This document shows, in pieces, positions 1 through 10,963 of a stretch of 22,677 bases of DNA. The stretch is from a virus. Location of the stretch: IMG/VR virus record IMGVR_UViG_3300008448_000711, positions 1 to 22,677 of that record, one strand, 5' to 3'. A program made the translations under genes and the position numbers. The stretch's first letter is position 1. Each line of letters opens with the position of its first letter. A model generated the notes under the pieces. The model ran no database searches. It saw nothing but the letters and a program-made list of their open reading frames with translations, and was not told where the DNA came from.

Positions 1-1356
1 TTTGGAGTAACTCAAGATGAAGGCAAGCATTATTACCCTTATGCTGACGCAGACGGAACTAAATGCGCTGTTAAAGTGCGCTCAGTTGCTGACAAGGGTT
101 TCACCATTGCAGGAAACTTCAAAGATGCCGCTCTATTCGGTCAATCTCTCTTTCACTCCGGTGGGAAGTACGTCACGGTATACGAAGGAGAACTTGATGC
201 ATTGGCAGGATACCAACTTACAGGCTCTCAGTGGCCTAGTGTCTCTATCCGAAACGGAGCCAGTGCAGCCCTGAAGGACTGTAAAGCACAGTATGAGTGG
301 CTGAACAGTTTTGAGAACATTGTTATCTGCTTTGATAACGATGAGCCGGGGAAGAAGGCTGCTAAAGAGGTGGCTGAGGTGTTCGGTCAGAAGGCCAAGA
401 TTGTGAAGCCTAAAGGTGCTTTTAAAGATGCCTGTGACTACCTCAAGGCAGGGGCTACCAAGGAGTTTGTTAATGAGTGGTGGAGGGCTGAGACGTATAT
501 CCCTGATGGTATCGTTAATGCTGCCTCACTGTGGGAAGAAGTGGTTAAGCCTGAGCCTGTTGCAGAGGCACAGTACCCATGGGAAGGCTTGAATAAGCTG
601 CTCTATGGTCTGCGCCCTGCTGAGCTTATCACGGTCACTGCTGGTAGTGGATTGGGTAAGAGTCAGTTCTTGCGGGAGATTCTGTATCACCTGCTCAAGA
701 CGACATCGTGGAACATTGGTGGTCTCTTTTTGGAAGAGTCAACAAGGAAGACAGCACGGAGTATTATGAGCCTCCATGCTAACAAGCTGTTGCATCTCCC
801 AGACACGCCTGTAACTGAGGCTGAACTGAAGGAATCGTTTGATGCTACTCTTGGTACTAATCGTATTTATCTGTTCGATCACTTCGGTAGCTCTGATGTG
901 GACAACATCGCCAACCGGATCAGATACATGGCTAAAGCTTGTGATTGTCGTGTTGTATTCTTGGATCACATTAGCATTGTTGTATCTGGTCAAGATGTGG
1001 GTGATGAACGAAAGGCCATAGATAACATGATGACGAAACTGCGGACACTGGTACAGGAACTTGAGATCACCTTGATTTGTGTGTCTCACCTTCGTAGGCC
1101 GCAAGGCAACAGTGGGCACGAGGATGGTCAAAGTGTCTCTTTGTCGCAACTGCGTGGTTCAGGTGCTATTGCACAACTGAGTGATGCTGTGATAACATTG
1201 GAGCGTAACAGCATGGCAGAGAACGAAGAGGAGCGACACACCACTAAGGTAGCTGTTGCAAAGAATCGCTACAACGGGTATACTGGCCCTGCTTGTAACC
1301 TGAAGTATGAGAAGATTAGTGGTCGAATGATTGAACAAAAGGAAGAAGTGCTATGA
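1..1356 (+). CDS. T7 gp4-like primase-helicase, 5' end missing
   Basis: The reading frame is open from base 1 with no start codon in view, so the gene begins outside the window; 451 codons remain, against about 566 residues for T7 gp4. Residue numbers count from base 1. A TOPRIM primase core is visible (EGELDALA near residues 63-70, then FDNDEPG near 111-117). A RecA-like hexameric helicase follows: Walker A GSGLGKS near 215-221, Walker B VVFLDHISIVVSG near 318-329, the SHLRRP strand near 362-367 and the LRGSGAIAQLSD segment near 384-395. The helicase half aligns by eye with T7 gp4. The protein should unwind DNA at the fork and lay primers for the polymerase three genes downstream. The N-terminal zinc-binding domain that reads priming sites lies outside the window, so its presence cannot be judged. 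An internal GTG at 76 is not the true start. Confidence 0.95.
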   Translation, partial: FGVTQDEGKHYYPYADADGTKCAVKVRSVADKGFTIAGNFKDAALFGQSLFHSGGKYVTVYEGELDALAGYQLTGSQWPSVSIRNGASAALKDCKAQYEWLNSFENIVICFDNDEPGKKAAKEVAEVFGQKAKIVKPKGAFKDACDYLKAGATKEFVNEWWRAETYIPDGIVNAASLWEEVVKPEPVAEAQYPWEGLNKLLYGLRPAELITVTAGSGLGKSQFLREILYHLLKTTSWNIGGLFLEESTRKTARSIMSLHANKLLHLPDTPVTEAELKESFDATLGTNRIYLFDHFGSSDVDNIANRIRYMAKACDCRVVFLDHISIVVSGQDVGDERKAIDNMMTKLRTLVQELEITLICVSHLRRPQGNSGHEDGQSVSLSQLRGSGAIAQLSDAVITLERNSMAENEEERHTTKVAVAKNRYNGYTGPACNLKYEKISGRMIEQKEEVL

Positions 1357-1822: not shown

Positions 1823-3544
1823 ATGAAACGTATCCTACTGGATATAGAAACAAACACCAAACATGACAAGATTTGGGTTGTTATTACAAAAGACATTGAT
1901 AGAGGTGAGACAAAGATATGGAAACAAGCAAAGCCCCTCGTGGAGTATTTAAAGGACACTACGCTGATAGTCGCACACAACGGAATCAGCTTCGATTTTC
2001 CTCTATTGAACAAGCTATGGGGTACGAAGATTCATGGGAATCAGGTATTCGATACGTTGATCGTAAGCCGCCTACTAGACCCGAGCATAGAGAACGGACA
2101 CAGCCTAGAGGCATGGGGAGAAAGGCTTGGCTTACAGAAGATTAACTATCGTGCTGTGTGGCTTTGGATTACCCATCGTAGCGAGAAGGATACACCTAAG
2201 CTGCTGGAGTTTGACGAGCCGCACGAAGGACTGATGGATGTTTACTGTGGGCGGGATGTGGATGTGCTGGAGGTGTTGTACCATCACTTGGTTAAGGAAC
2301 TCAAAGAGAAAGAGTTTAGTGACGATAGTGTGGTGCTGGAACACAAGGTAGCTGCTATCCTCTCTAAGCAGGAAAAGAATGGCTTTAAACTGGATCAAGA
2401 GTATGCAACAAATTTGTTGGTTGACATTCAAGGGAAGCTGGATGGAATTTATGAGCAGATGCAGCAAAGGTGGCCTCCAGTCACCCTTGAGCGAGTCTCA
2501 GAAAAAACCGGAAAGCGACTCAAAGACTCCATTGTTACTTTCAACCCCGGATCAAGACAGCAAATTGCTGAGAAAATGATTGAACTGGGATGGAAGCCTA
2601 CGAAGAAGACGGAGAAGGGTCAGGTCATTGTGGACGAATCTGTGCTGTCTGAGTTACAGTATCCAGAGGCTAAACTGATTGCAGACTATCTGTTACTACA
2701 GAAGCGAGTAAGTCAGGTCAAGTCTTGGTTTGAGGCTGTCGGTAAGGATGGTAGGGTGCATGGCAGGGTCATCACCAACGGGGCTGTAACAGGGCGTATG
2801 ACGCACAGCAGCCCTAACATGGCTCAGATACCTAACTCAGGTTCTCTGTATGGGCCTGAGTGTCGTGAGTGCTGGACAGTGGGGGAAGGCAATGTGTTGG
2901 TAGGTGCTGATGCCAGTGGTCTTGAGCTACGGATGCTGGCGCACTACATGAAGGATGATGATTATGTCAAGACAGTCGTTGAGGGATCAAGTAAGGACGG
3001 AACGGATGTCCATACGAAGAACCAAAAAGCTGCTGGTTTACAGACGAGGGATCAGGCGAAGACGTTTATCTACGGCTTCCTCTACGGGGCTGGTCCGGCG
3101 AAGATCGGTGCTATTGTTGGTGGATCGGCTAAAGATGGGCAGCGACTTATTGATTCCTTCCTTAAAGCGACTCCCTCTCTTCAGCGTCTACGAGATACAG
3201 TTGCCAAGTATGCGAGTAAGGGCTTTGTACCGGGGCTTGATGGTAGAAAGATATGGGTACGTTCCGAACATTCAGCGCTCAATAGCCTACTTCAAGGAGC
3301 AGGGGCGATTGTGATGAAACAGGCTTTGGTGATGCTGGAGAAAGATATTAGGGTGAACAAACTACGTGCTAAGTTCGTGGCTAATGTCCATGACGAATGG
3401 CAGATAGAGTGTCATCCTGATGATGCTGAAGCAGTAGGGAAACTTGCTGTGGCTGGTATCAAAGCAGCAGGGGAACACTTTAACCTTCGCTGTCCTTTGG
3501 ATGGTGAGTATAAGGTGGGGAAGAGTTGGCGACACACGCATTAA
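1823..3544 (+). CDS. T7-like family A DNA polymerase with proofreading exonuclease
   Basis: The replicative polymerase, 573 aa against 704 for T7 gp5. The 3'-5' exonuclease acidic residues are present: D7 and E9 in LLDIET, D58 in HNGISFDF, and Y141/D145 in YCGRDVDV. Polymerase motif A is GADASGLELR (D363), motif B is RDQAKTFIYGF (R409, K413, Y417) and motif C is VHDE (H523, D524, E525). Y417 corresponds to the T7 Tyr526 position. Between W217 and the conserved FNPGSR at 240-245 only about 23 residues remain, where T7 carries the roughly 75-residue thioredoxin-binding insertion, so processivity is probably achieved differently. The start has a good ribosome site (TAAGGA, 1812-1817). Family assignment is secure; independence from thioredoxin is inference. 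Confidence 0.97.
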   Translation: MKRILLDIETNTKHDKIWVVITKDIDRGETKIWKQAKPLVEYLKDTTLIVAHNGISFDFPLLNKLWGTKIHGNQVFDTLIVSRLLDPSIENGHSLEAWGERLGLQKINYRAVWLWITHRSEKDTPKLLEFDEPHEGLMDVYCGRDVDVLEVLYHHLVKELKEKEFSDDSVVLEHKVAAILSKQEKNGFKLDQEYATNLLVDIQGKLDGIYEQMQQRWPPVTLERVSEKTGKRLKDSIVTFNPGSRQQIAEKMIELGWKPTKKTEKGQVIVDESVLSELQYPEAKLIADYLLLQKRVSQVKSWFEAVGKDGRVHGRVITNGAVTGRMTHSSPNMAQIPNSGSLYGPECRECWTVGEGNVLVGADASGLELRMLAHYMKDDDYVKTVVEGSSKDGTDVHTKNQKAAGLQTRDQAKTFIYGFLYGAGPAKIGAIVGGSAKDGQRLIDSFLKATPSLQRLRDTVAKYASKGFVPGLDGRKIWVRSEHSALNSLLQGAGAIVMKQALVMLEKDIRVNKLRAKFVANVHDEWQIECHPDDAEAVGKLAVAGIKAAGEHFNLRCPLDGEYKVGKSWRHTH

Positions 3545-3552
3545 GGAATAAA

Positions 3553-4035
3553 ATGGGCAGACTAAAGCGAACAAAAGAAGAGATAAAAGAGGACATAAGA
3601 CAGCAGAGTAAAGTTTGTTGTGTCTGTAACATCCGACAGCCTTTTTCTTCTTTCTTTAACTACATGAATAAAAGTGATGGGAAATCTTATCGTTGTAAAA
3701 ACTGTGATACTGAGGCACGTCAAAAGTGGGCAGATCAGAACCCCGAACGATCCTACAATTCAGCCAGAGGACGACAGCTTAAACACAAGTATGGTATTTC
3801 ATTGCTTGAGTACGAACAGATGCTAGCTGAGCAAGGAGGAAAATGTTATTTGTGTGGGGCAACTGAGAACAGCACAGGAGGGGAAAGAAAAGATTGGAAT
3901 TTCGCTGTAGATCATAACCACACAACCGGTAAGGTTCGTGGGTTGCTTTGCAACAACTGCAACAGGGGCTTAGGGCTGTTTCGAGACAACCCAGAACTGT
4001 TGCGGAAAGCTGCTGAGTATGTGGAAACTCATTGA
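3553..4035 (+). CDS. Endonuclease VII-like HNH nuclease
   Basis: A 160-aa zinc-binding nuclease. I place the start at ATG 3553, preceded by AAGGA 6 bases upstream; an in-frame start at 3526 lies inside the polymerase gene and has no ribosome site. Two CxxC pairs near the N-terminus (CCVCNIRQ and CKNCDTEA) suggest a zinc ribbon. The C-terminal half carries the recombination endonuclease VII signature: GGKCYLCG, then VDHNHTTGKVRGLLCNNCN, where DHNH gives the catalytic His and the CxxC pairs bind zinc. T4 endonuclease VII cuts branched DNA such as Holliday junctions; many free-standing phage relatives are thought to be homing or nicking enzymes. Position directly after an intact polymerase gene fits either reading. 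A second resolvase-type enzyme, endonuclease I, is encoded at 5714. Confidence 0.88.
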   Translation: MGRLKRTKEEIKEDIRQQSKVCCVCNIRQPFSSFFNYMNKSDGKSYRCKNCDTEARQKWADQNPERSYNSARGRQLKHKYGISLLEYEQMLAEQGGKCYLCGATENSTGGERKDWNFAVDHNHTTGKVRGLLCNNCNRGLGLFRDNPELLRKAAEYVETH

Positions 4036-4312: not shown

Positions 4313-4744
4313 ATGAATAACTCGCTGAAACCAGTTAAAATCGAAGGCGTGCTTTTTTGGTCTCGTTGGATGGGTGAATTTAACACTAAGTTCAACGATG
4401 CCAATGAGAAGTATGAAGCAACCATTGGAGAACTCAGCGCAGGTGCTGTAGCAGCTTTGACTGCTTTGGGTATCAAGGTGAAGAACAAGCCTGACATGGG
4501 TGACTACATTGTCTGTAAGTCTAAGTTCTTGTTTGAACCTAAAGACACTGCTGGTAACCCTGTGGCTATCAAAGATATCGGTAACGGCACTAAAGGTGTG
4601 TTTCTTGTATCTAGCTACTCTCACAAGCTCTCTAGCAAGCACGGTAATGCTCCTTCTTTGAAGACCATTACCATCACTGACTTGAAGAAGTATGCGCCAG
4701 CGGATGAGCCTGTGGTTGAAGTCGAGGAAGACGCTGTTCTGTAA
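4313..4744 (+). CDS. Phage single-stranded DNA-binding protein
   Basis: A 143-aa protein resembling the OB-fold SSBs of T7-like podoviruses. The core has the typical beta-rich pattern (FNDANEKYEATIGEL, then DYIVCKSKFLFEP, then GVFLVSSYSH), and the C-terminus ends in an acidic tail of the type that SSBs use to contact polymerase and helicase (residues 130-143, EPVVEVEEDAVL). It is shorter than T7 gp2.5 (232 aa). A good ribosome site lies 9 bases upstream, and the gene follows the structured leader, so it is probably the first gene of a separately controlled transcript. Its stop overlaps the exonuclease start by one base (TAATG). The protein should coat single-stranded DNA during replication and recombination. 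Confidence 0.75.
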   Translation: MNNSLKPVKIEGVLFWSRWMGEFNTKFNDANEKYEATIGELSAGAVAALTALGIKVKNKPDMGDYIVCKSKFLFEPKDTAGNPVAIKDIGNGTKGVFLVSSYSHKLSSKHGNAPSLKTITITDLKKYAPADEPVVEVEEDAVL

Positions 4745-5454
4745 TGGAGCAAGAGCCTAAGCTGGCTCTCGTTGATGCCGACTTTCTTGTCTATCGTATT
4801 TCGTTCGCGGATAGAGATGCGAGTGAAGGGATAGCAAAAAGTCGGCTGACGAAACTGCTGTTTGACATTGTTTATGAGAAGCTCAAATGTGATGACTACA
4901 AGGCTTGGATAACAGGCAAGAGTAACTATCGCTTTGAGCTAGCTGTTACAACCCCGTACAAGGGCAACAGGAAGGACATGGAGAAGCCTCCGCATTACGA
5001 GGCACTCCGAGAACACCTGATGCGTCTAGGGGCTGTAATGACTGATGGTGATGAAGCTGATGATGCTGTGGCTGAGGCTAGTGTCGATGGTGGATGGATT
5101 GTCCACGTTGATAAAGACCTCAACCAGCTTCAAGGCTGGCACTACAACCCTGTGAAAGATGAGAAGTACTATGTTACGGAAGAAGATGGACACCGTAGCT
5201 TCTACACTCAGCTTTTGACAGGTGATAGAGTGGATGCAATTCTTGGATTAGACGGTATCGGGCCGAAGAAGGCTGAGAAGATACTGAAAGATGCTAAGAC
5301 CGAGTTAGAGATGTATGAGGCTGTTAAGGCTGCATACGAAGATAAGGGAGTATCACATGAACGGTTACTGGAGTCAGGAAACTTGTTATGGTTAAGGCGA
5401 AAGAAGGGACAAATGTACAGCTTTCCCCAAACATCCCCTGTGCCTTCAAGTTAG
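4744..5454 (+). CDS. T7 gp6-like 5'-3' exonuclease (FEN family)
   Basis: A 236-aa flap/5' exonuclease. Metal-binding acids are visible in order: D11 and D13 (LVDADFLVYR), E104/D106/D107 (DGDEADDAVA), D123 and D125 (HVDKDLNQLQ), D161 and D164 (GDRVDAILGLDGIG). The last begins the helix-three-turn-helix (GLDGIGPKKAEKIL, residues 168-181) that grips DNA. T7 gp6 (about 300 aa) removes primers and degrades host DNA; the same roles are expected here. The gene is coupled to ssb by a one-base overlap. Its last 67 bases overlap the start of the next gene in another frame, so the C-terminal tail is probably dispensable for the fold. Confidence 0.92.
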   Translation: MEQEPKLALVDADFLVYRISFADRDASEGIAKSRLTKLLFDIVYEKLKCDDYKAWITGKSNYRFELAVTTPYKGNRKDMEKPPHYEALREHLMRLGAVMTDGDEADDAVAEASVDGGWIVHVDKDLNQLQGWHYNPVKDEKYYVTEEDGHRSFYTQLLTGDRVDAILGLDGIGPKKAEKILKDAKTELEMYEAVKAAYEDKGVSHERLLESGNLLWLRRKKGQMYSFPQTSPVPSS

Positions 5455-5714
5455 CAGGGTGTTACTGGAAGGTTATTGAAACTGAAGCCTTTTACGATCA
5501 AGGTATGTGTTATCCTGAGGAACACACAATCCGTATCCGTAAGGAGTTGTCGAAGCAGTCTAAAGAGACTACCTTCTATCACGAGTTGGTTCACGCTATC
5601 TTGTTTACAATGGGTGAGAATAACCACGATGAGAAGTATGTCGATACGTTTGGAGCTTTCTTGCATCAGTTCAATGAGAGTAAGATGTCTCGACCACAGT
5701 CATTGGGGGCTTGA
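5388..5714 (+). CDS. Small HExxH zinc metallopeptidase-like protein
   Basis: A 108-aa protein with a clear gluzincin-type HExxH helix (TTFYHELVHAILFTMGE; H65, E66, H69). The region before it (CYWKVIETE through EEHTIRIRKEL) is beta-like, as in phage SprT/ImmA-like mini-metalloproteases. A candidate third zinc ligand lies about a dozen residues on (H80, E82 or D86 in NNHDEKYVDTFG). The ATG at 5388 sits 67 bases inside the exonuclease gene and no later ATG would keep the upstream strands. Substrate is unknown: it could process a phage or host protein, or use the fold only structurally. Its place between exonuclease and endonuclease I suggests a link to DNA metabolism. Confidence 0.7.
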   Translation: MVKAKEGTNVQLSPNIPCAFKLAGCYWKVIETEAFYDQGMCYPEEHTIRIRKELSKQSKETTFYHELVHAILFTMGENNHDEKYVDTFGAFLHQFNESKMSRPQSLGA

Positions 5715-6115
5715 TGTCAAAACACAGCGACAAACGGAAGGCTGCTTTGAAGGCGGGATACCGGAGTGGTCTTGAAGATGACATTGCGAAGCAGTTGGAT
5801 GCGATGCGAGTCAAGTACACGTATGAGGAATTGAAGATTTCCTATACTGTACCTGAGTCTCAGCATAAATATACTGCTGATTTTGTGTTACCGAACGGGA
5901 TTGTGGTGGAGTCAAAAGGACGCTTCGTGACAGCAGATAGGAAGAAACACTTGTTGATTAAGCAGCAGTATCCTGAGCTAGACTTACGCTTTGTGTTCAG
6001 TAATCCCCGGTGTAAGATCAGTAAGGTAAGTAAGACTACGTACGGAGACTGGTGCGACAAATACGGGTTTAAATACTCGACTAAGACTATCCCTAAGGAG
6101 TGGGTTGATGAGTGA
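5714..6115 (+). CDS. T7 gp3-like endonuclease I, Holliday-junction resolvase
   Basis: A 133-aa protein that follows T7 endonuclease I (149 aa) along nearly its whole length: SGLEDDIAKQLD, then YTADFVLPNGIVVESKG, then DRKKHLLIKQQYPELDLRFVFSN, and a C-terminal IPKEW. All four catalytic residues of the PD-(D/E)xK site are present (E21, D56, E66, K68, matching T7 E20, D55, E65, K67). The start is ATG 5714, overlapping the preceding TGA by one base; a TTG three bases earlier is possible but less likely. T7 gp3 resolves branched replication intermediates and helps degrade host DNA. The last bases overlap the small gene that follows. Confidence 0.95.
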   Translation: MSKHSDKRKAALKAGYRSGLEDDIAKQLDAMRVKYTYEELKISYTVPESQHKYTADFVLPNGIVVESKGRFVTADRKKHLLIKQQYPELDLRFVFSNPRCKISKVSKTTYGDWCDKYGFKYSTKTIPKEWVDE

Positions 6116-8897: not shown

Positions 8898-9054
8898 GAT
8901 CACTTTCCCTGAATTGAAAGAGCGTCTATGTGATGTAGACGAAGTAACGCTAATTGAGTTACTGAACATTAGAAGCGAGGATATCGTGGAGAAGTTCAGT
9001 GAAGAAATTGAAGAACAACAAGACAAATTAAAGGATTATTTGAATGACGAATGA
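8890..9054 (+). CDS. Small acidic phage protein, 54 aa
   Basis: A short gene starting at ATG 8890, 8 bases before the previous gene ends, and running 11 bases into the RNR gene. The product is acidic and probably helical: DVDEVTLIELLNIRSEDIVE followed by KFSEEIEEQQDKLKDYLNDE. Similar short acidic proteins with the pattern D..EL.E.L.I..EDIVE.F occur in many T7-like phages, as far as I recall, without known function. No strong ribosome site is seen, so it is probably translated by coupling. Confidence 0.72.
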   Translation: MNEITFPELKERLCDVDEVTLIELLNIRSEDIVEKFSEEIEEQQDKLKDYLNDE

Positions 9055-10963
9055 GATTATGACCCCTTGGAGCAGTGTTGGTTATTTGACGATGAAGCGC
9101 ACCTATGCACGGCGCTTGAATGAGTCTGACCCAAACAGCCCAACGGAGGAGTGGGGAGACATTGTTAACCGTGTTGCAGACGCTACCGACAGTCAGTTGG
9201 GTGTGGGCTTCACTGAGGAAGAGAACAAGCGATTCAAGGGCTATCTGATGGGTCTAAAAGGCTCTGTAGCAGGTCGTTTCTTGTGGCAGATGGGTACAGA
9301 CACTGTGGGTAATTTGGGCCTTGCATCCTTGCAGAACTGTGCCTTCCGTGTGGTGAACAAACCAGTGGAACCGTTTACTTGGGCTATGGATATGCTCATG
9401 TTGGGTTCCGGTGTTGGCTATAACATTCAGAAAGAAAATGTTGATAAACTACCTCCCGTCAATTCAGACTTCGTTCGTCCTACTCGTGTTAGTGACTCTG
9501 GTGCTGATTTTATCGTTCCTGATTCCCGTGAAGGATGGGTTGCTTTGTTGGGCAAGACACTTAAAGCAGCGTTTCTGGCCCACGAAACAGGACGACAAAC
9601 CTTCACCTACTCAACACAGTTGATCCGGTCTAAAGGTGCTCCTATCAAAGGCTTTGGAGGCACTGCTTCAGGCCCAGAGGACTTGGTTTGGGGTATCGAC
9701 AAGATCAGTGATGTGCTGGAGAAACGAGCAGGTCGTAAGCTGCGTCCGGTGGATTGCTTGGACATCATGAACATTATCGGTGCTGTGGTCGTGGCGGGTA
9801 ACGTGCGCCGTAGTGCTCAGATTGCTATTGGAGATGCGGACGATGTTGAATATCTGCTTGCTAAACGATGGGACTTGGGCAATATTCCCTCATGGCGTGC
9901 CATGTCCAATAACTCGGTGGTGTGTCACGACATCAACGACCTTCACGACTTCTTCTGGGATGGTTACGAGGGTAAAGGCGAACCATATGGGCTTATCAAC
10001 CTTAAACTGAGCCGTAAGGTGGGTCGATTGGGTGAGACTGAGTATCCTGATCCAGATGTCCAAGGTTACAACCCTTGTGCGGAGCAGAGTTTGGCTGACG
10101 GTGAAACTTGCTGCCTTGCGGAGGTATTCCTTCCCAACATTGATAGCAAGGAAGAGTTGTTAGATGTGTGTAAGTTGTTGTACCGAGTCAATAAGCATAG
10201 CTTGTCGCTCCCCTGCCACCAGAAGGTGACTGAGGCGATTGTGAACAAGAATATGCGTATGGGTATCGGTATGACAGGTGTGCTTCAAGCCTCTGAGGAA
10301 CAGAAGTCATGGATGGGAGATGTCTATAAGGCGTTGCGTGAGTTCGACAAGGTGTACAGTGCAGAGCATGGTTGGAATCCGTCCATCAAGCTGACAACGA
10401 TTAAGCCTTCTGGTACGTTGTCTCTCTTGCCGGGTGTGACTCCGGGCTGTCATCCTGCTTATGCTCGTTACATGATTCGCCGTATCCGTATCATGTCTGA
10501 CCATTCTTTGGTTCAGGTGTGTAAGGATCATGGATACCCTGTGGAGTATCAGCAGAACTTTGATGGTTCAGAGGATCGTTCTACTGTGGTTGTGTCGTTC
10601 CCCTTCCGCCACCCAGACAATGCGGTGTTGGCTAAGGATATGACAGCACTGAGCCAGTTGGAGACAGTGAAGTGGTTGCAAGAGGAATGGTCTGATAACA
10701 GCGTGAGCTGCACGGTTTATTACAAGAAGGAAGAACTGCCTGAGATTCGTAAGTATCTCAAGAAGAACTATAAGAACAGCCACAAGAGCCTGAGCTTCTT
10801 GCTGCACTCTGAGCATGGTTTCAAACAAGCACCGCTTGAAGAGATCACCAAAGAGCAGTATGATGAGATGGTGAAGAACACCACACCGATTACCAGTATT
10901 AACTCGCTGGATATTGGTTTGGATGATGCTGAGTGTGCTACTGGCGCTTGCCCAATTCGTTAA
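9044..10963 (+). CDS. Class II (adenosylcobalamin-dependent) ribonucleotide reductase
   Basis: A 639-aa monomeric-type reductase that converts ribonucleoside triphosphates to dNTPs using a cobalamin-derived radical. The redox cysteines are in place: C99 in LQNCAFR, the thiyl-radical C345 in NPCAEQS, C356/C357 in GETCCLAE, and a C-terminal shuttle pair C631/C636 in ECATGACPIR. Other conserved blocks include AGNVRRSAQIAIGD (252-264) and IKPSGTLSLLPGVTPGCHP. It resembles Lactobacillus-type RTPR (about 739 aa) but is about 100 residues shorter. No ATP-cone-like N-terminal extension is seen. The phage does not appear to encode B12 synthesis here, so the cofactor must come from the host. A ribosome site is weak (AAAGGA near 9029-9034); coupling to the preceding gene is likely. 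Confidence 0.95.
   Translation: MTNEIMTPWSSVGYLTMKRTYARRLNESDPNSPTEEWGDIVNRVADATDSQLGVGFTEEENKRFKGYLMGLKGSVAGRFLWQMGTDTVGNLGLASLQNCAFRVVNKPVEPFTWAMDMLMLGSGVGYNIQKENVDKLPPVNSDFVRPTRVSDSGADFIVPDSREGWVALLGKTLKAAFLAHETGRQTFTYSTQLIRSKGAPIKGFGGTASGPEDLVWGIDKISDVLEKRAGRKLRPVDCLDIMNIIGAVVVAGNVRRSAQIAIGDADDVEYLLAKRWDLGNIPSWRAMSNNSVVCHDINDLHDFFWDGYEGKGEPYGLINLKLSRKVGRLGETEYPDPDVQGYNPCAEQSLADGETCCLAEVFLPNIDSKEELLDVCKLLYRVNKHSLSLPCHQKVTEAIVNKNMRMGIGMTGVLQASEEQKSWMGDVYKALREFDKVYSAEHGWNPSIKLTTIKPSGTLSLLPGVTPGCHPAYARYMIRRIRIMSDHSLVQVCKDHGYPVEYQQNFDGSEDRSTVVVSFPFRHPDNAVLAKDMTALSQLETVKWLQEEWSDNSVSCTVYYKKEELPEIRKYLKKNYKNSHKSLSFLLHSEHGFKQAPLEEITKEQYDEMVKNTTPITSINSLDIGLDDAECATGACPIR

Follow-up and report, generated by a model that had tools for sequence, protein, structure and literature searches.

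A T7-type DNA polymerase with a 22-residue thumb hairpin in place of the thioredoxin-binding domain, and leucine-ended acidic tails on its helicase and single-stranded DNA-binding protein

How does a DNA polymerase of the phage T7 type remain on its template when the insertion that binds thioredoxin in T7 is replaced by 22 residues? The question is raised by a 573-residue family A (T7 gp5-like) DNA polymerase with a 3′–5′ exonuclease, encoded on the plus strand at positions 1823–3544 (ATG start at 1823) of an IMG/VR virus record, the whole of which (22,677 bases) was analysed and is referred to here as the window. Our proposal, for which we see about as much for as against, is a thioredoxin-free T7-type polymerase made processive by a small hairpin and by tail-mediated tethering to the helicase and the single-stranded DNA-binding protein (SSB).

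The polymerase is T7 gp5-like in its exonuclease and polymerase motifs, its overall fold and its full-length relation to gp5, which is also its closest relative by sequence in the PDB. It matches Pfam DNA_pol_A (4e-55) and phrog_17 (1.3e-156), and its AlphaFold2 model (pLDDT of 91.9, from an alignment of 86 sequences) retrieves T7 gp5 entries at the top of a structural search (38% identity over 559 aligned residues, Z of about 41), followed by the Klenow fragment (Z of 37). Residues D7, E9, D58 and D145 of the exonuclease align with D5, E7, D65 and D174 of T7, and D363, H397, R409, K413, Y417 and D524 of the polymerase with D475, H506, R518, K522, Y526 and D654, the catalytic residues of gp5. 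All of the residues checked against gp5 are kept, as the original prediction of intact exonuclease and polymerase motifs had it, and they are kept across the clade, bar gaps in truncated rows and a single R-to-K substitution. Among the matches listed from the phage collection, the best relatives of the polymerase are those of the Pelagibacter phages HTVC103P, HTVC104P and HTVC115P (45–48% identity). Taken jointly with a hairpin grip on DNA and processivity supplied by tails, the view that the gene product is a true replicative family A enzyme of the T7 type, working independently of thioredoxin, is, in our estimate, evenly balanced.

Located at the tip of the thumb is a hairpin (residues 218–239; positions 2474–2539, plus strand), delineated by the modelled strands, its length and its conservation, in the place of the T7 thioredoxin-binding domain. 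Exactly 22 residues separate W217, where the long thumb helix ends, from F240 of the FNPGSR motif; the residues of T7 gp5 aligned with these, F261 and F334, have 72 between them, and E. coli Pol I has 6–7 at this place. The shortened loop noted earlier is thus real, and the binding domain of about 71–76 residues that marks thioredoxin-dependent T7-type enzymes is absent. Structure prediction of the polymerase alone, suggested in the original prediction, models the loop as a two-stranded hairpin (strands 220–225 and 232–238) flanked by helices 192–216 and 245–254. The T7 loop is given as 71 residues (PMC3997047) and the T7 domain as residues 258–333 (PMC3556154). In simulations of gp5, E319 and E330 form salt bridges with thioredoxin, and a backward loop comprising residues 272–290 touches DNA through K281, K285 and R288 (PMC5984650); crosslinking places residues 269–288 and 294–302 on the template (PMC9198812).

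A profile alignment sets SEKTGKRLK of the window polymerase on HPRTGKPLP of T7 (residues 276–284), with K231 on K281 and S236 opposite E330, and leaves most of T7 residues 285 to 329 without a counterpart. The L-INS-i alignment also pairs TGK with TGK, and a faster MAFFT run does not; the residue-level match between hairpin and T7 loop, with two alignments agreeing on TGK and one differing, is not robust, which counts against our proposal. In the 82 of 83 clade rows that have exactly 22 residues, over which conservation was scored, a basic residue is found at R224 in 78, at K228 in 81, at K231 in all 82 (81 K, 1 R) and at K234 in 81, and the equivalents of all four are basic in 80 of 80 HTVC019P-like rows. 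These four near-invariant residues probably face DNA, and the comparison suggests that the DNA-facing part of the T7 loop is probably kept and most of its thioredoxin-facing part absent. Most of the T7 thioredoxin-facing stretch, E319 included, is missing from the window polymerase, which makes it unlikely that processivity depends on host thioredoxin.

The absence of thioredoxin contacts is not clean: position 236, the serine aligned with E330, is glutamate in 34 of 83 clade rows, which weighs against thioredoxin independence. The earlier claim that processivity comes from something other than a T7-style thioredoxin grip is accordingly carried by the absent E319 stretch and weakened at the E330 position. 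It seems improbable that the hairpin still binds host or phage thioredoxin through a reduced interface and that the enzyme works like T7 gp5; the kept E330 position and the location of the hairpin at the same place between thumb helices favour such binding, the E319 stretch is gone, and 22 residues are left out of 72. A thioredoxin family gene was found in 13 of 14 control genomes, which favours this alternative, and in none of 20 clade records (the window among them, some possibly fragments), which speaks against it. The beta clamp family was likewise found in 0 of the 20 clade records, window included and fragments possible, and in 11 of 14 controls. The fragmentary state of the clade records makes missing genes weak evidence for our own proposal.

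Seven polymerases served as queries for relatives (those of the window, HTVC019P, T7, HTVC104P, SIO1, L326 from the HTVC104P side, and Syn5), each group comprising at most the best 80 loci of its query and being a near-query sample that includes near-identical contigs. Groups are named after the query that fetched them, except that L339 and L418 are placed in the window clade, while the L326 group takes in L307 and L326 itself; L650 and L659 lie on the same contigs as L009 and L036. Among the matches listed, in an alignment of 398 rows that includes references and omits polymerase rows below 400–500 residues, the insert has 22–23 residues in all 81 rows of the window clade, the window counted, and 22 in all 80 HTVC019P-like rows; of 77 rows on the HTVC104P side, 34 have an insert of 33 residues and 38 one of 46; 42 residues are found in 53 of 62 rows on the SIO1 side, and the T7 side has 72 residues in 72 of its 80 rows. 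HTVC103P, HTVC104P and HTVC115P have tails that end in Phe. The insert is 33 residues long in HTVC104P and HTVC115P, 30 in the cyanophages P-SSP7, Syn5 and P60, and 86–95 in SP6. Inserts of about 60 residues or more occur among the sampled polymerases only in the T7 group, VP4, BB8, SP6 and a few SIO1-side rows.

In a tree built on 82 chosen rows, the T7-type insert (T7, VP4 and the T7-side loci, with BB8) is confined to one branch, and other long inserts (SP6, L409, and those of 55–57 residues in the L326 group) are placed elsewhere. In a second tree, made without the insert columns on the 76 rows left after removal of six long-branched ones, joining the window clade and the HTVC019P-like polymerases, the two 22-residue groups, is rejected (p-AU 8e-5); this and the other AU p value below are generous, as groups were named after the first tree with the tail data already seen, and the trees were quick ones. 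HTVC019P-type polymerases (Pelagivirus, Autographiviridae) resemble that of the window in the 22-residue insert, their consensus being equal at 13 of 22 positions including the four basic ones, and differ in their separate branch, in F/Y tails and in a T7-type RNA polymerase present in one record.

The tree method itself gives no direction of change. Because the long T7-type insert is confined to T7's own branch, it is most economical to suppose that T7 has been enlarged and not that the window polymerase has been cut down. What the original prediction called a strongly reduced loop is indeed short relative to T7; a special reduction is not supported, the short loop being the normal state in two unjoined branches and T7 apparently the enlarged one. 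We find it hard to credit that the ancestor of the window phage possessed a complete thioredoxin-binding domain of the T7 type and that the loop was lost in the line of this phage. The TGK motif shared with the T7 domain in two of three alignments would fit such a loss, and it is set against the single branch of T7-type inserts, the two 22-residue branches whose union is rejected, and a loop in E. coli Pol I that is shorter still.

Lying directly upstream of the polymerase, with a four-base overlap each, are two ORFs of 76 residues (positions 1353–1583 and 1580–1810, both plus strand), which had been put forward as candidate processivity partners. Neither is generally conserved: across the 661 loci of all groups, part of which stop short of the stretch upstream of the polymerase, homologs of the first were found in one locus and of the second in five. 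Outside these loci, the first has a weak match to phrog_20561 (function unknown; 3.5e-5) and equally weak ones to three phage records (best E of 0.007), and the second has no match in the phage collection. The gap between helicase and polymerase is shorter than 60 bases in 5 of 73 clade loci with a readable helicase end (some near-identical) and shorter than 230 in 16 of 73, so that a 76-residue gene cannot fit in those loci. Poor conservation and short gaps together rule the two ORFs out as general partners, and both look lineage-specific. That the processivity factor is one of these genes, or some other unrecognised phage protein, is in our judgement very improbable, their adjacency to the polymerase being outweighed by the homolog counts and by the loci with fewer than 60 bases to spare; a gene elsewhere that has escaped recognition may still serve.

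The acidic tails of two other replication proteins may offer a different source of processivity. Open from the first base of the window and cut by its left edge is a gp4-like primase–helicase (positions 1–1356, plus strand), which has Toprim and DnaB-like helicase domains (Toprim_2, 1.7e-10; DnaB_C, 1.8e-26; phrog_239), its N-terminal part lying beyond the edge. Its C-terminal tail (1333–1353, plus strand) ends in EQKEEVL. Encoded at positions 4313–4744 (plus strand) is a 143-residue Gp2.5/Enc34-like SSB, assigned through the profiles of its relatives and its fold. The window sequence itself has no family match in Pfam and PHROG-type profile searches; of its 39 relatives, six match the Gp2.5-like phrog_112 (best 2.5e-12) and four Enc34_ssDNA-bd (best 2.2e-5), and Foldseek places the model with the Enc34 SSB (E 5e-6) and T7 gp2.5 (E 2e-4). 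Two further matches were taken as chance, namely a weak one of the SSB profile to a binary-toxin binding component in the PDB (E 0.006 to 0.09) and a BRCT match in 8 of the 39 relatives (best 0.008). Similar to T7 gp2.5 and the Enc34 SSB in fold and in a disordered acidic C-terminal tail (positions 4703–4741, plus strand; predicted disordered from residue 131, with pLDDT below 50 for 131–143), the window SSB ends in VEEDAVL, and thus in leucine rather than the terminal phenylalanine of gp2.5.

This ending is shared by the clade. A helicase tail was counted where the match covered at least 75% of its query and an SSB tail where it covered at least 50%, provided in both cases that the frame ended in a stop; helicase row L476, counted as G (its match runs past the stop), and SSB row L478 (V), apparently misread, were retained. 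Among the matches listed, the last residue in the window clade is Leu in 71 of 73 helicases (2 Gly) and in 70 of 71 SSBs (1 Tyr), and both tails, which are acidic, end in Leu in 59 of the 61 clade loci with both readable. On the same footing, the endings among the matches listed are F 52 and Y 25 (n = 77) for the helicase and F in 77 of 77 for the SSB in the T7 group; Y 58 and F 14 (n = 72) and F in 45 of 45 in the HTVC019P group; F in 69 of 69 and in 45 of 46 in the Syn5 group; F 66, I 6, V 1 and L 1 (n = 74) and F in 29 of 29 in the HTVC104P group; and G 53, I 4, F 4 and Y 1 (n = 62) and F in 6 of 6 on the SIO1 side. The L326 group, again among the matches listed, is the second to end in leucine (helicase L in 77 of 78; SSB L 47, F 9, V 1 and I 1, n = 58). 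Over the seven groups, 321 loci with both tails readable comprise 190 aromatic/aromatic, 106 L/L and 25 other combinations.

As a control, 194 of the 732 ATG-started ORFs of at least 100 residues in the clade loci (helicase and SSB counted) terminate in Leu, and one other gene, coding for a metallopeptidase, does so in 14 of 39 cases with an ending that is not acidic. An acidic Leu ending is found in 120 such ORFs, 118 of them helicase or SSB. A single clade for all Leu-tailed rows is rejected (p-AU 1e-4), and the tail ending has therefore changed at least twice, by two gains or by a gain and a reversal. Joint change of the two tails is represented by 2 independent pairs only (p 0.5), which counts against our proposal. 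Nine L326-group loci (L429, L430, L437, L438, L440, L442, L444, L453 and L489) combine an SSB ending in SEF or DEF with a helicase ending in Leu, possibly as an intermediate or a reversal of the tail change. In three window-clade relatives (L641, L643 and L645), the helicase ends in QTF and the SSB in EAL or DAL.

What these tails bind is the next question. Both known tail-docking patches of T7 gp5 are lacking or reduced in the window polymerase, which counts against docking of the T7 kind. Besides the thumb insert, alignment lengths show a 12-residue stretch (residues 459–470; positions 3197–3232, plus strand) where T7 has 27 residues that include W579 and the front basic patch. Its length is 12–13 residues in 81 of 81 clade rows and 27 in 76 of 80 T7-group rows among the matches listed, with 27 in VP4, 12–14 in most others, 13 in E. 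coli Pol I and an unrelated 45 in RHEph21. The T7 polymerase has reportedly been solved with a helicase-tail peptide (PDB 6p7e). According to three papers (PMC12593628, PMC5997990 and PMC12230644), the helicase and SSB tails of T7 both bind the polymerase, and the acidic tails hold it at the fork, so that processivity increases from about 5 kb to 17 kb; the helicase's terminal Phe is described as essential.

The closest annotated relative for the window helicase (54%) and SSB (37% over 87%) is MW202701 (Podoviridae sp. ctYwJ313, complete, 54.8 kb), which has Leu tails on both proteins and differs in its polymerase. The window polymerase query, which finds the window, has no match in MW202701; its polymerase belongs to phrog_1252 (1.5e-186), with motifs that look family B in our own reading (the Pfam PolB exonuclease match lies below threshold). 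In L583/L584 (MW202701) and 21 loci within L587–L652, the phrog_1252 polymerase replaces the family A enzyme in phages with a closely related helicase and SSB. Of 79 loci reached through the MW202701 helicase, a family A polymerase is present in 42 (helicase L 39, F 3; SSB L 24, A 1), the other polymerase in 21 (helicase L in 21 of 21; SSB L in 18 of 18 readable) and neither, within reach, in 16 (helicase L 16). Because Leu tails persist with a polymerase of another family, the tail partner need not be a window-type polymerase: either it is not the polymerase, or both polymerase families read the same tail. That Leu tails outlast the family A enzyme weighs against the docking that we propose.

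A possible, if rather doubtful, alternative is that the acidic Leu tails bind each other's protein or another replication protein (the SSB fold and the helicase ring being candidate receptors), with a distributive polymerase that is repeatedly re-recruited. It is supported by the retention of Leu in MW202701 and the 21 loci (several near-identical) where the family A polymerase was replaced. It also gains, and our proposal loses, from the absence of an excess of polymerase columns that track the Leu tails, with 4 such columns for the two Leu groups against 1–13 in the other 27 group pairs. One column, K377, was considered and dropped; it stood out under one combination of threshold and groups. 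Weighing against a non-polymerase receptor are the T7 precedent of two tails that both bind polymerase (PMC12593628, PMC5997990 and PMC12230644), the near-universal presence of acidic tails among the groups whose polymerase is of family A, and the possibility that a replacement polymerase came to recognise the existing tail.

Returning to the thioredoxin-free polymerase, the most likely arrangement is that the 22-residue β-hairpin with its four basic residues would lie along the product duplex as a small built-in grip on DNA, as proposed by analogy with the T7 backward loop (272–290, with K281, K285 and R288). Most of the processivity would arise at the level of the replisome, where the acidic tails of helicase and SSB would, like those of T7, prevent the polymerase from leaving the fork. 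By analogy with T7, the Leu tails would be docking peptides for a putative site on the thioredoxin-free polymerase, with the terminal leucine replacing phenylalanine. A hint in the same direction, from a single case, is provided by the SIO1 group (L341–L405), in which the insert has a net charge of −0.7 (51 rows) against +1.0 to +6.4 in all other groups, the acidic helicase tail is absent as a rule, and SSB queries are unmatched except for six divergent rows.

A wider reading of the tails, which we offer tentatively and rate a little short of even, is that T7-type replisomes use at least two tail dialects, acidic Phe/Tyr in most groups and Leu in the window clade and, separately, in a second clade, which is marine. 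A common receptor would read both the helicase and the SSB tail and be retained when the family A polymerase is exchanged, making the tail code, not thioredoxin, the constant. The SSB tail network of the host is Phe-ended, and a terminal Leu may separate the phage tails from it.

The replication module also contains a 5′–3′ exonuclease (positions 4744–5454, plus strand; phrog_107, 1.4e-57), and a T7-type endonuclease I is encoded at 5711–6115 (plus strand; Phage_endo_I, 4.3e-57). Other genes in the window encode ThyX, a MazG-like protein, a ribonucleotide reductase, tail proteins, a holin and an endolysin. Overlapping the end of the polymerase gene is an endonuclease VII-like gene (3526–4035), whose homologs are variously placed around the polymerase elsewhere, as would be expected of a mobile HNH gene. 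The ribonucleotide reductase (9044–10963) has 26–34% identity in most matching clade loci and 68–69% over a short stretch in L032 and L037, which suggests that it has been exchanged.

In a search of 15 records, a T7-type RNA polymerase was found in those of T7, an HTVC019P-like phage and Syn5 and in the L341 record, and in 0 of 9 clade and 0 of 2 L326-group records (possible fragments, the window being one); three further named records gave no match, with an equally silent control. The L341 record, SIO1-like and at 73,002 bases nearly twice the SIO1 genome, carries its RNA polymerase at 40444–41484 and may be a chimera of two phages. The window belongs to a podovirus-like phage from a clade without close isolates in the phage collection, and probably falls outside Autographiviridae. 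A genome scan for the host gave a 66% match on a 6.6-kb Bacteroidetes MAG contig and five loci at 33–41% in other bacteria, and was not accepted as host evidence.

In the open literature, so far as its texts were available, we recognised nothing on Leu-ended tails, nor on T7-like polymerases of aquatic phages with a short thioredoxin loop. The T7-type thioredoxin-binding domain and the front basic patch lie in T7's own branch, the other sampled aquatic relatives having smaller inserts, so that the textbook replisome of T7, clamped by thioredoxin and with tails ending in Phe, may be the exception. Since helicase and SSB differ from T7 in concert, with Leu in place of Phe, peptides offer a direct way to ask what both tails bind. 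A thioredoxin-free polymerase of this type could reveal the minimal needs of a processive family A replisome, and would be a candidate single-subunit enzyme for biotechnology.
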